Below are positions 3,146 to 6,630 of a stretch of 64,000 bases of DNA, piece by piece. How positions within the stretch are numbered: the first letter of the stretch is position 1; each line of letters begins with the position of its first letter. The position numbers and the translations under genes were made by a program. This DNA is from an uncultured SAR86 cluster bacterium (GTDB lineage Bacteria; Pseudomonadota; Gammaproteobacteria; Magnimaribacterales; Magnimaribacteraceae): the NCBI GenBank assembly GCA_938075195.1, contig CALJGK010000010.1:1-64000 (forward strand), in the 5' to 3' direction. A model generated the notes under the pieces. That model was not told the DNA's origin, ran no database searches, and saw nothing but the letters and a program-made list of their open reading frames with translations.

Positions 3146-3156
3146 GTTGCTTTATT

Positions 3157-3185
3157 AAAAAAGGCCGCTTTAGCGGCCTTTTTTA
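3157..3185. terminator. bidirectional Rho-independent terminator
   Basis: AAAAAAGGCCGC-TTTA-GCGGCCTTTTTT hairpin between convergent CDS ends. Confidence 0.85.
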
Positions 3186-4139
3186 TACCTGATTAATTAA
3201 TTTTTCACCCTTAAGGAACCTTTTGTAATTGTCTATAAAAAGCTCTATTGCACGCAATGGTGCTCTTGGTCCCCAAGCAGAATCATGAGGCGTGATGTAA
3301 CAATTTTCTAAAGTCCAGAGTGGAGATGTTGCATTGAGCGGTTCCGGATCTGTAGTATCTAAAGCTGCACAGAAAATTTCTTGTTCTTTAAGGGCTTGTG
3401 CAAGACTTTTTTCATCAACTGATTCTCCTCGCCCCACATTAATAAACATTGCAGAAGGCTTCATAGCTTTAAATTGTGCATCTGAAAAAACTTTATGGGT
3501 ATCAGGAGTAGAAGGAAGGCAGTTAACTACAAAATCGCATTTTGTAAGCATTTCATTTAATTCGCTGGGCTTGAATAATCTATCTAGATTGTCCGAGAGA
3601 ACAGGAGTTCTTTTCGTAGCATAAACATTCATTCGAAATGACTTAGCTAAGCGTGCAACTTCTTGACCAATCCCACCAAATCCGGTGATTCCTATAGAGA
3701 GATCAGTTAACTCTCCAACAGACATCATTTGCTTCCATTCCTTTTGGTTTTGCATTTTTATATGGGCATCTATTGATTTTACTGACCTTAAGATTTGAGC
3801 AAACACATAGGTGGCTATTGGTATGGCGTGAATTCCCCCTCCATGAGAAAAATTCTTTGAATGACTAATCAATGCTTCTGCCTGAGTGGTTTCAATACCA
3901 GCCCAAGATCCCTGAACATATGAGCATCCATCAATTAACGATAGGTACTTACTAAAGAAAACTTCAGATTTTAATGCCTTGAACATTAGTTCATAAGACA
4001 CTAAAGCAATATCTGGTTTCCCTTCTCCGTGAACAACATTAGACTCGGAGTCTATTAGAATAAACTCATCGTTTATGAAACTATCTGTTAAAAGTTCTTC
4101 AAAAGCTTTAAAGGTAAATTCACTTACGCAGATTTTCAT
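3183..4139 (-). CDS. D-isomer-specific 2-hydroxyacid dehydrogenase
   Basis: 318 aa; GITGFGGIGQEVARLA Rossmann motif, NVGRGESVDEKSLAQAL, ITPHDSAWGPRAP. Confidence 0.85.
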   Translation of the reverse strand: MKICVSEFTFKAFEELLTDSFINDEFILIDSESNVVHGEGKPDIALVSYELMFKALKSEVFFSKYLSLIDGCSYVQGSWAGIETTQAEALISHSKNFSHGGGIHAIPIATYVFAQILRSVKSIDAHIKMQNQKEWKQMMSVGELTDLSIGITGFGGIGQEVARLAKSFRMNVYATKRTPVLSDNLDRLFKPSELNEMLTKCDFVVNCLPSTPDTHKVFSDAQFKAMKPSAMFINVGRGESVDEKSLAQALKEQEIFCAALDTTDPEPLNATSPLWTLENCYITPHDSAWGPRAPLRAIELFIDNYKRFLKGEKLINQV

Positions 4140-4142
4140 TGA

Positions 4143-4535
4143 TTACTTTAAGTCGCCCTCTTCTCTCATTTTCTTCCTAATCTTAGTTGCGCTGATGTCT
4201 GTAACAGATTCTTCAAAGGTCTCCTCTTCAAAAACATAACCAACCCCTCTGCCATAGGTAATATTTACTATGTTAGGCACCATCATAATCTCATAGTGAA
4301 CCCCCCTTTCGAAGCCATCTTTAGCAAGACCTTCGGAAATATTCTTACACACCTCATCCCAATCAAAAGGATTATCATTCTGACCTTCGCCTCCTGAAGC
4401 ACCATGTACATCTCTTACTTGAATAATCACTTGACCGGTCTTATTGAGAGATCTTTTAAATAACTCTTGATGACCATCATGCCAAGGTTGCCATCTACCA
4501 AGCATCTGAACTGTAGGTTTCTTCCAATCAAACAT
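4143..4535 (-). CDS. HxGH-type nucleotidyltransferase (cytidylyltransferase/adenylyltransferase-like)
   Basis: 130 aa; GRWQPWHDGHQELF active-site motif and C-terminal ISATKIRKKM. Confidence 0.75.
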   Translation of the reverse strand: MFDWKKPTVQMLGRWQPWHDGHQELFKRSLNKTGQVIIQVRDVHGASGGEGQNDNPFDWDEVCKNISEGLAKDGFERGVHYEIMMVPNIVNITYGRGVGYVFEEETFEESVTDISATKIRKKMREEGDLK

Positions 4536-4938
4536 CTTTATTAATCCTCTCTGCTATATCTATGTGGTTGTGATCATTCCATTCTTTGATATGAAAATCC
4601 ACTTGTTGTGGAGGTTCAAAGAGTGCATTTGTGTCTTCGAATCTTCCCTTTTCAATCGTATCGAGCCAAATGGTAATATCAGCTTCGAATATGTTCCTAG
4701 TCTCCTTTGTGGGGCACACAAAATCACAAATAACTATTCTATTATGAGCAGATTCGAAGTCAGCAACTGACTTCATTCTTAAGCTCTGTCTTAATCTCCC
4801 CTCTTCGCTGAAGTCCCAATCACCAGCCATTGTTCTTACTTTATCTGCGTTATACCAAGCAGATTCTAATAAAGGTTGCAGTCTTTCTGACAAATAAGTC
4901 TTACCACTGCCCGGTAGTCCCATCACGAGTATTTTCAT
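4528..4938 (-). CDS. APS-kinase-like P-loop kinase
   Basis: 136 aa; GLPGSGKTYLS Walker A, NADKVR, DWDFSEEGRLRQSLRM, CDFVCPTKETR resemble adenylylsulfate kinase. Confidence 0.75.
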   Translation of the reverse strand: MKILVMGLPGSGKTYLSERLQPLLESAWYNADKVRTMAGDWDFSEEGRLRQSLRMKSVADFESAHNRIVICDFVCPTKETRNIFEADITIWLDTIEKGRFEDTNALFEPPQQVDFHIKEWNDHNHIDIAERINKDV

Positions 4939-4952
4939 ATATCAATATTTGT

Positions 4953-6047
4953 TTAAAGGAAATTTAACTTATTATGTACTTCTTTCTTATCAAGTCCATA
5001 ATCTTGTAATGAATAGCTGTGTTTAATTTTAGCTTCTTGCTTCCCGGTCTCAACATAATTCATCATCTGATTTAGAGTTAACTCATTCAATGGTAATGAA
5101 AATTTACTATATATATCTTTTATTAAGTTAATTGGATCTTCTAACAAATCATCGTATTCAACTTGGAGATATTTTTCAGCAGGTATCTTCGATATCTGTG
5201 ATTCGTTTTTATCATTAGATTTTGCCCAAAAGTCTAAAGTTTTCCTTCCAAGGTCATTGGGACTTAATTTTTTTGAAAATCCTCTTCTTACCTGAGAAGT
5301 CAGACTACAAATTGATGGTAGAGTCTCTGATGGATCTCTACTTAAATGAATGAAGCATGCATCAGGATAACGATCTAATATTTCCTCTAGGTTACCCAAA
5401 TGAGACGGATCTTTAAGCAGCCACCTTTTGGGTTTGTGTGTTTTTTCAAGAATCTTAAGAAACTTATAATGCCAGTCGTAACTGATACCAGTATCTGCAT
5501 TAATTAAATATTCAAGATAAGATGGAGTATTTGCCATATAAAAATAAAAGATGCTTTGTAAGGCAAAGACTTTTATAAGCAAGCACTCTTCTGGACTCTC
5601 CGATTTGATTGCATGAATGTGATCTAGTTGTGGAATAAATTTTTCTTTAATGAACAAAATAGAATCAGATCGCAATATCCTGGATTTCTCGGAAAATGAT
5701 TTTGGGGTAACTAATGGAAGAGGCTTCATCATTTCCCAAAAAAGCGGACTTCTATTATCGGGATCTTTGCTAAGTAAATTAAATAAAAAAGTAGTTCCAG
5801 ATCTCGGCAGTCCAATCACTATAATGGGTTGAGATACTTTTTCTGAATTTACATCGTTATAGGCTTGAGATATCAAGGACCGATTCCTTAGATGTTCTTT
5901 AATTTGATACTCAACTGCAAGGTTTCCTAAGAAAGTTAGATCTGCCTCTTTATTGATTGACCTTATCAGAATATCAAGAGGTTCCTGATAATCAGTGTCA
6001 GATTGGTCAAGCCCTACCCGATCAATGATCTTCGAAAGATTAAGCAT
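4953..6047 (-). CDS. sulfotransferase family protein
   Basis: 364 aa; PAPS 5'-phosphosulfate loop IVIGLPRSGTTFLFNLLS, WLLKDPSHLGNLEEIL, FIHLSRDPSETLPSICSL. Confidence 0.88.
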   Translation of the reverse strand: MLNLSKIIDRVGLDQSDTDYQEPLDILIRSINKEADLTFLGNLAVEYQIKEHLRNRSLISQAYNDVNSEKVSQPIIVIGLPRSGTTFLFNLLSKDPDNRSPLFWEMMKPLPLVTPKSFSEKSRILRSDSILFIKEKFIPQLDHIHAIKSESPEECLLIKVFALQSIFYFYMANTPSYLEYLINADTGISYDWHYKFLKILEKTHKPKRWLLKDPSHLGNLEEILDRYPDACFIHLSRDPSETLPSICSLTSQVRRGFSKKLSPNDLGRKTLDFWAKSNDKNESQISKIPAEKYLQVEYDDLLEDPINLIKDIYSKFSLPLNELTLNQMMNYVETGKQEAKIKHSYSLQDYGLDKKEVHNKLNFL

Positions 6048-6063: not shown

Positions 6064-6630
6064 CTATTCTCTATAAATGCCACGACCAGCTGGCATGGTT
6101 TTTTCCATATCAGCATAGTTACCAGTAAAGGCCATATGCTCTCCCTCAATATCCTCAATTTTTGAAGCGGTACCATTTACCAAAAGAGGATCAAATTGCG
6201 TTTTTGAAGTGAAACTTTGAAGGTACTTATAAGATTCCCTTACATTCATGGCTCCTTTTGCAGAGGTAACTTTAATACCCTTAATTTTCCCTTTTGAATT
6301 GATTGAATAAGTGAATTTTATTCTCGTTTTACCCGCCTTTACATTGTCAGGCTTTTCAAAAAATTTTGAAACATAACTAGGGGTGCAAAATAACAACTTA
6401 CAAACAGCTTCATCACCTTTCTTTTCCTCAGGCCAAGCTTTAAGTTTGCAAGAATCATCATTACAAGCCAAACATGTATCAGTAGTTTGTTGTCTAAATT
6501 GACTTAACTGGCTTGCAGTATCTTTGTTGAGTTCTTGATTTATTAAACATATAGGTGCGCTGTATAAGCTCAATCCAAAGAATGTTAAAAATAATAGCGA
6601 TAAACATTTTTTCATAAAAAATCTCCCCAA
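6064..6630 (-). CDS. secreted protein with TonB C-terminal-like domain
   Basis: 188 aa; signal peptide (MKKCLSLLFLTFFGLSLYSAP; true start probably at about 6615) and IKFTYSINSKGKIKGIKVTSAKG...FDPLLVNG pattern. Confidence 0.55.
   Translation of the reverse strand: MGRFFMKKCLSLLFLTFFGLSLYSAPICLINQELNKDTASQLSQFRQQTTDTCLACNDDSCKLKAWPEEKKGDEAVCKLLFCTPSYVSKFFEKPDNVKAGKTRIKFTYSINSKGKIKGIKVTSAKGAMNVRESYKYLQSFTSKTQFDPLLVNGTASKIEDIEGEHMAFTGNYADMEKTMPAGRGIYRE

Follow-up and report, generated by a model that had tools for sequence, protein, structure and literature searches.

What is the function of two small, overlapping genes that lie beside a sulfotransferase gene in a SAR86 bacterium, one resembling a kinase of adenosine 5′-phosphosulfate (APS) and the other a nucleotidyltransferase? 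The genes are found in a window of 64,000 nucleotides (contig CALJGK010000010.1, positions 1 to 64,000) from the draft genome (1.39 Mb, 82.6% complete) of a SAR86 bacterium (Gammaproteobacteria); the closest relatives of this genome are labelled SAR86. They are the middle two of four tightly packed minus-strand genes, encoding a sulfotransferase (ST), a shortened APS-kinase homologue (KIN), an HxGH nucleotidyltransferase (NT) and a 2-hydroxyacid dehydrogenase (HADH; Table 1). The initial annotation treated all four as an operon, and suggested that KIN and NT could be a compact sulfate-activating pair distinct from CysND–CysC. Comparative genomics supports such a pair: KIN–NT is very probably a minimal module for synthesis of 3′-phosphoadenosine 5′-phosphosulfate (PAPS), the activated sulfate used by the cell, with NT as a sulfate adenylyltransferase that has so far gone unrecognised and KIN as the APS kinase, together supplying sulfotransferases. 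NT itself, a 130-residue protein resembling nicotinamide mononucleotide adenylyltransferase (NMNAT), probably represents a third class of sulfate adenylyltransferases that is structurally separate from the others. It is widespread among abundant marine bacteria and their viruses, and would provide PAPS for sulfation and, beside AprBA, complete sulfite oxidation.

KIN passed the Pfam APS_kinase model (PF01583) with 31.9 bits against a cut-off of 21.1, and stayed below the cut-offs of the NCBIfam APS-kinase models (31 of 127 bits). An alignment with canonical CysC showed that K13 (Walker A), D32, R35, F43, R48, R54, F73 and P76 were retained. KIN thus has in common with CysC the P-loop fold, the Walker A motif, the Asp and Arg of DGDxxR, the Phe of GFS, the Arg of DR, the second Arg of IRR and the FxxP motif, but is 136 residues long, compared to about 175–200 for CysC. 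The predicted structure had a predicted local distance difference test score (pLDDT) of 93, and its top Foldseek matches were APS kinases, among them the Penicillium enzyme and human PAPSS1. As judged from its sequence, KIN is a truncated homologue of APS kinase.

NT was below the cut-off of every ATP-sulfurylase or CysD model, of NadM, and of all other curated models in Pfam and NCBIfam, including CTP_transf_like (16.6 bits, cut-off 21). The check by profile models and structure prediction proposed in the initial annotation therefore bore out an APS_kinase match for KIN, but placed NT in neither the ATP-sulfurylase nor the CTP_transf_like family. The motifs quoted there for both proteins were found in the translations. 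In an alignment of 38 NT-family sequences, the HxGH and ISxTxxR nucleotide-binding motifs were conserved: RWQPWHDGH is invariant apart from W15, which is nearly so, and D20, and ISATKIR is invariant throughout. The NT model had a pLDDT of 85, lower at residues 91–120, and its best Foldseek matches were NMNAT and phosphopantetheine adenylyltransferase (PPAT), with E about 1e-3; the closest solved structures were NMN adenylyltransferases. Adenylyltransferases of the NadM/PPAT type are thus nearest to NT in sequence and fold, sharing its GRxQPxHxGH and ISxTxxR motifs, but the stretch that links the last core strand of NT to its C-terminal motif is shorter, and its genomic context is not NAD or coenzyme A metabolism. 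With Sat (PF01747), NT would share the reaction, and both have an HxxH/HxGH-type nucleotidyltransferase motif, which links them as members of one superfamily; NT is much smaller, and lacks the QxRN signature of Sat. CysD–CysN(C), to which NT is likened in its proposed pathway role, is built on folds unrelated to that of NT, of the PP-loop type in CysD and of the GTPase type in CysN, and no GTPase partner accompanies NT. NT would therefore do the work of Sat or CysDN from a different protein family.

The genes that travel together are KIN and NT. Among the 203 SAR86 genomes of the order, 121 contain NT and 121 have APS_kinase matches, and KIN lies in the same cluster in 72 of the 80 bacterial NT loci. 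ST (14 loci) and HADH (16 loci) accompany the pair in the clade of the window only, and we therefore rejected a fixed four-gene operon: the analysis supported neither the inclusion of the dehydrogenase in the module nor a constant partnership with the sulfotransferase, both of which the initial annotation had assumed. At other SAR86 sites the pair is located by tyrS, by uvrC-pgsA-kdsD or by a methyltransferase-like gene (names read from sequence). Viruses carry KIN–NT as well, on hundreds of marine contigs; in a scan using the NT alignment, at least 593 stretches among the 600 matches listed were confirmed. Both genes are found in 143 of 160 viral loci, always on the same strand and mostly overlapping by a few bases. 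In phages they may be fused, as in Stenotrophomonas phage DLP6 and phrog_10255, a family labelled "kinase" with no pathway assignment, in which the same domains occur in the order KIN then NT and whose phage members are 35–49% identical. A 272-residue bacterial fusion is encoded in G930, a genome from another family of the phylum (L339:6916-9170); this gene overlaps an AMP-binding gene of the acyl-ligase type, a setting unlike that in SAR86. The pairing and fusion indicate that KIN and NT work together, and the functional unit is the KIN–NT pair, not the four genes.

A genome of the same genus as the window, G535, provides a natural replacement. It is without an NT match and has an APS-kinase match of the canonical kind (E 9e-67). 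Instead, it encodes a CysD (TIGR02039, 461 bits, E 1e-57), the one strong CysD in the 203 SAR86 genomes, together with a CysNC (PRK05506, 857 bits). These two genes are located after pgi-uvrC-pgsA and before wzz, and the homologous uvrC-pgsA-...-wzz interval holds KIN–NT in five other loci (L018, L024, L066, L068 and L295). The G535 CysD (L291:9036-10520) has an N-terminal extension of about 190 residues.

Across the same 203 genomes, Sulfotransfer_3 is present in 135, ATP-sulfurylase in one and any PF01507 match in 13, showing that SAR86 is almost entirely without CysD and Sat. NT and Sulfotransfer_3 occur together in 115 genomes, NT alone in six, Sulfotransfer_3 alone in 20 and neither in 62, the last including one family of about 40 genomes that has neither (Fisher p 2e-27, uncorrected for descent). 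In one of the six genomes with NT alone, G565, the pair adjoins a Sulfotransfer_1 gene. In another, G550, the KIN–NT copy is on a phage-like contig (L338) binned into the SAR86 draft, probably as contamination. Two SAR86 polysaccharide-type loci encode CysH-like PF01507 proteins of about 200 residues (L295:3983-4576 and L296:5089-5694); other genes of sulfate reduction were not seen in these loci.

Six genomes, two from SAR116 and four metagenome-assembled genomes of Bacteroidota type, have NT without an intact KIN (the assignment of one, G578, follows from its locus and the CysC result). All six contain a canonical stand-alone CysC (E ≤ 4e-66) and none has a PF01507 (CysD) match, in a search that did not cover Sat. 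In the three Bacteroidota loci that extend past cysC it is followed by CysQ. In known sulfite oxidisers, Sat handles the APS from AprBA. In both SAR116 genomes, aprM (a membrane protein gene), aprB and aprA lie downstream of NT, at a distance of 109 nt, and CysC comes about 1.2 kb beyond aprA; aprB (190 bits) and aprA (951 bits) each score above the cut-off. In this type of AprBA, aprM always precedes the other two genes and is co-transcribed with them (PMC2211403). Taken together, these contexts associate NT with enzymes producing or consuming APS, and suggest that a canonical APS kinase can replace KIN.

Other neighbours point in the same direction. A small membrane protein, DUF2061, is encoded between KIN and NT in 21 of the 143 viral loci having both genes and in bacterial loci L045 and L051, and is a neighbour shared with CysD–CysN(C): Mesorhizobium symbiosis plasmids have the order nodI, ABC permease, sulfotransferase, DUF2061, cysD and cysNC, and CysD/CysN genes adjoin DUF2061 on two Microvirga plasmids. 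Since only one of 12 loci from Gammaproteobacteria at large links DUF2061 to sulfate genes (directly after an APS-kinase domain), this support comes from the rhizobial plasmids and the KIN/NT loci. CysQ clears 3′-phosphoadenosine 5′-phosphate (PAP), the by-product of PAPS-dependent sulfation. The SAR86 locus of G565 (L337) reads KIN, NT, DUF2061 and CysQ, with the Sulfotransfer_1 gene convergent to them. Sulfotransferase genes with a tetratricopeptide repeat adjoin the pair on two alphaproteobacterial contigs (L051 and L064), and a third contig (L047) has a sulfotransferase gene close to it. On phage contigs L238–L240 the sulfotransferase and KIN genes overlap by 4 nt, and weaker sulfotransferase matches adjoin the pair in L146 and L163. 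In G529, KIN and NT are apart, with KIN directly beside a sulfotransferase gene and NT within 2.4 kb of one.

It is because of the CysC, CysQ, AprBA and DUF2061 contexts and the CysD–CysNC swap that we consider sulfate to be the substrate. From these contexts, the sequence and fold relationships, and the pairing and fusion, we infer the following scheme. NT would convert ATP and sulfate to APS and pyrophosphate, and KIN would transfer a phosphate from a second ATP to the ribose 3′-OH of APS, yielding PAPS and ADP. ST, and sulfotransferases encoded elsewhere in the genome, would then use PAPS to produce a sulfated acceptor and PAP; judging from neighbouring genes, our guess is that the acceptor is a cell-surface polysaccharide. 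Beside AprBA, NT would presumably run in reverse, from APS and pyrophosphate to ATP and sulfate, the direction depending on the host.

Several observations weigh against this assignment. With regard to the APS/PAPS-binding residues of KIN, the lack of which the initial annotation had named as evidence against its proposal, the outcome was divided: D32, R35, F43, R48 and R54 are kept, but the conserved Asn of the CysC ENIRR motif is replaced by Gln, and the CysC lid segment (KGLYKKAR...NFTG) is deleted. These differences would permit a changed substrate, and by analogy the pair might make a PAPS-like 3′-phosphonucleotide donor of another small oxyanion or an amide. APS-kinase relatives do act on other nucleotide-linked small groups, and the Campylobacter phosphoramidate pathway has an APS-kinase homologue. 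We nevertheless consider such a donor very unlikely, as the replacements by CysD–CysNC and CysC and the placement by AprBA indicate APS or PAPS itself.

In NT, similarity to Sat is confined to the HxGH region (12.8 bits with PF01747, cut-off 24.3, the match spanning the motif alone), and similarity to CysD is undetectable. In Stenotrophomonas phages, a NADAR gene beside the KIN–NT fusion gives a hint of NAD-related function; in phage Bhz60 (L165:6556-7732) the NADAR-domain gene overlaps the start of the fusion, and an annotated cysteine dioxygenase is encoded 3 kb upstream. Together with the NMN adenylyltransferases being the nearest solved relatives of NT, this neighbour could suggest a split and reordered NadR-like unit, with KIN as a nicotinamide riboside kinase and NT as the enzyme that adenylates NMN to NAD+, for NAD salvage or phage counter-defence. 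Kinase–NMNAT fusions are known as NadR (PMC9503650). However, NT scored just 34.0 of 127 and 31.2 of 181 bits on the NCBIfam NadM/NadR models, and is about 40–50 residues shorter than NadM (130 residues, compared to 168–181 in solved relatives; local alignments, the basis for comparing the nicotinamide-binding segment, stop near residue 85). KIN is closest to APS kinase, with 15.2 bits for AAA_28 against a cut-off of 27, and the bacterial contexts are sulfate-related. NAD salvage was rejected on these model scores and contexts, and we regard it as extremely unlikely.

The remaining unfavourable points concern the genomes and neighbourhoods from which sulfate activation by KIN–NT was deduced. 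The six genomes with NT and no intact KIN may also carry Sat, and sat has been reported in some SAR116 genera (PMC8547437). The association of NT with Sulfotransfer_3 is mainly between families, and is not significant (p 0.08) within the two families having both. G529 contains KIN and NT and also a fusion of pyruvate kinase with Sat. This 717-residue protein (pyruvate kinase–PUA–ATP sulfurylase, L341:6451-8601) is the sole Sat in the 203 SAR86 genomes, and is encoded beside a sulfotransferase-like gene. Finally, a sulfotransferase is encoded within 1.5 kb in just 17 of the 80 bacterial loci and adjacent in four of the 160 viral loci (strict model), and few sulfotransferases turned up when 113 representatives of the viral neighbours were surveyed with Pfam. 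Adjacency was therefore dropped as a key statistic. The initial annotation had held that a pair usually apart from sulfotransferases would speak against it; taken literally, this is what we found, yet 115 of the 121 NT-positive SAR86 genomes carry Sulfotransfer_3. Adjacency is the wrong test of the sulfotransferase link, and genome-level co-occurrence and the sulfate contexts point to sulfate.

Some neighbourhoods could instead suggest that what the pair activates is a sugar, a polyol or another phosphorylated acid. In such a scheme, KIN would phosphorylate an acceptor bearing a hydroxyl group, NT would form a nucleoside diphosphate or AMP derivative that serves surface polysaccharides or the phage, and the sulfotransferase would play no part. 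Certain SAR86 KIN–NT loci adjoin KdsD, UDP-sugar dehydrogenase and Wzz, KdsA- and KdsB-like genes are near the pair in many marine phage loci (e.g., L096, L099, L104 and L120), and NT matches glycerol-3-phosphate cytidylyltransferase in size. However, polysaccharide loci are equally expected sites of sulfation, and a sugar or polyol substrate leaves unexplained the CysD–CysNC swap, the aprMBA–CysC operon, the DUF2061–CysDN link, the CysQ neighbour and the occurrence of NT with CysC in place of KIN. We rejected the glycerol-3-phosphate cytidylyltransferase or sugar-nucleotide interpretation as the main one because of these cys and apr contexts, and consider it unlikely.

The organization of the locus in the window was largely as first annotated, with four closely spaced genes on the minus strand, an 8-nt overlap between KIN and NT and a 3-nt gap between NT and HADH; the ST–KIN gap, given as 15 nt, measured 14 nt. 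The strong terminator proposed at the end of the operon was confirmed as a hairpin of −20.8 kcal/mol (z −3.5) with a U-run, equalled by none of 200 shuffles, and absent from the output of a simple consensus terminator scan. ST matched Sulfotransfer_3 (PF13469) with 136.5 bits (Pfam cut-off 27). HADH matched the NAD-binding domain 2-Hacid_dh_C (PF02826) with 175.3 bits, and reached no equivalog cut-off among the curated NCBIfam models. More than four genes probably make up the transcription unit, which would begin with the gene for a small secreted-type protein, since this gene is 16 nt upstream of ST and adjoins it in 14 relatives.

Table 1. Features of the KIN–NT locus in the 64,000-nucleotide window.
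Feature	Position	Strand	Length and basis
Intrinsic terminator after HADH, AAGGCCGC-TAAA-GCGGCCTT + U-run	3156-3185	minus	fold
HADH, D-isomer 2-hydroxyacid dehydrogenase	3183-4139	minus	318 aa; open reading frame (ORF), Pfam 2-Hacid_dh_C
NT, HxGH nucleotidyltransferase, proposed sulfate adenylyltransferase	4143-4535	minus	130 aa; ORF; function from context
ISATKIR motif of NT, residues 114-120	4176-4196	minus	family alignment
HxGH motif of NT, R14-H22, RWQPWHDGH	4470-4496	minus	family alignment
KIN, shortened APS-kinase homologue, proposed APS kinase	4528-4938	minus	136 aa; Pfam, model, Foldseek, site residues
Walker A motif GLPGSGKT of KIN	4897-4920	minus	alignments
ST, Sulfotransfer_3 sulfotransferase, proposed PAPS consumer in this lineage	4953-6047	minus	364 aa; Pfam
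Small secreted-type protein	6064-6612	minus	182 aa; no Pfam match

What would be new here is the enzyme type, the PAPS pathway being already known. In the open literature, with preprints and most subscription papers outside the coverage, we found no paper joining SAR86 and sulfotransferases, and none on an ATP sulfurylase of this kind. Because the two proteins are small, occur fused in certain phages and are easily expressed, the claim is directly testable. Metabolic reconstructions count ATP sulfurylase, a gateway enzyme in sulfur cycling, as present on the basis of Sat and CysDN alone. If our assignment is correct, the extent of sulfate activation is underestimated in SAR86, in SAR116 and in marine phages, and organisms described as unable to activate sulfate could still sulfate their surface molecules. 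Pelagibacter HTCC1062 has been reported to have aprBA, cysC and cysQ, but not sat, cysD or cysN (PMC5069961), a gap that an NT homologue could close. Beside AprBA, NT would likewise complete the oxidation of sulfite to sulfate in genomes thought to be without ATP sulfurylase.

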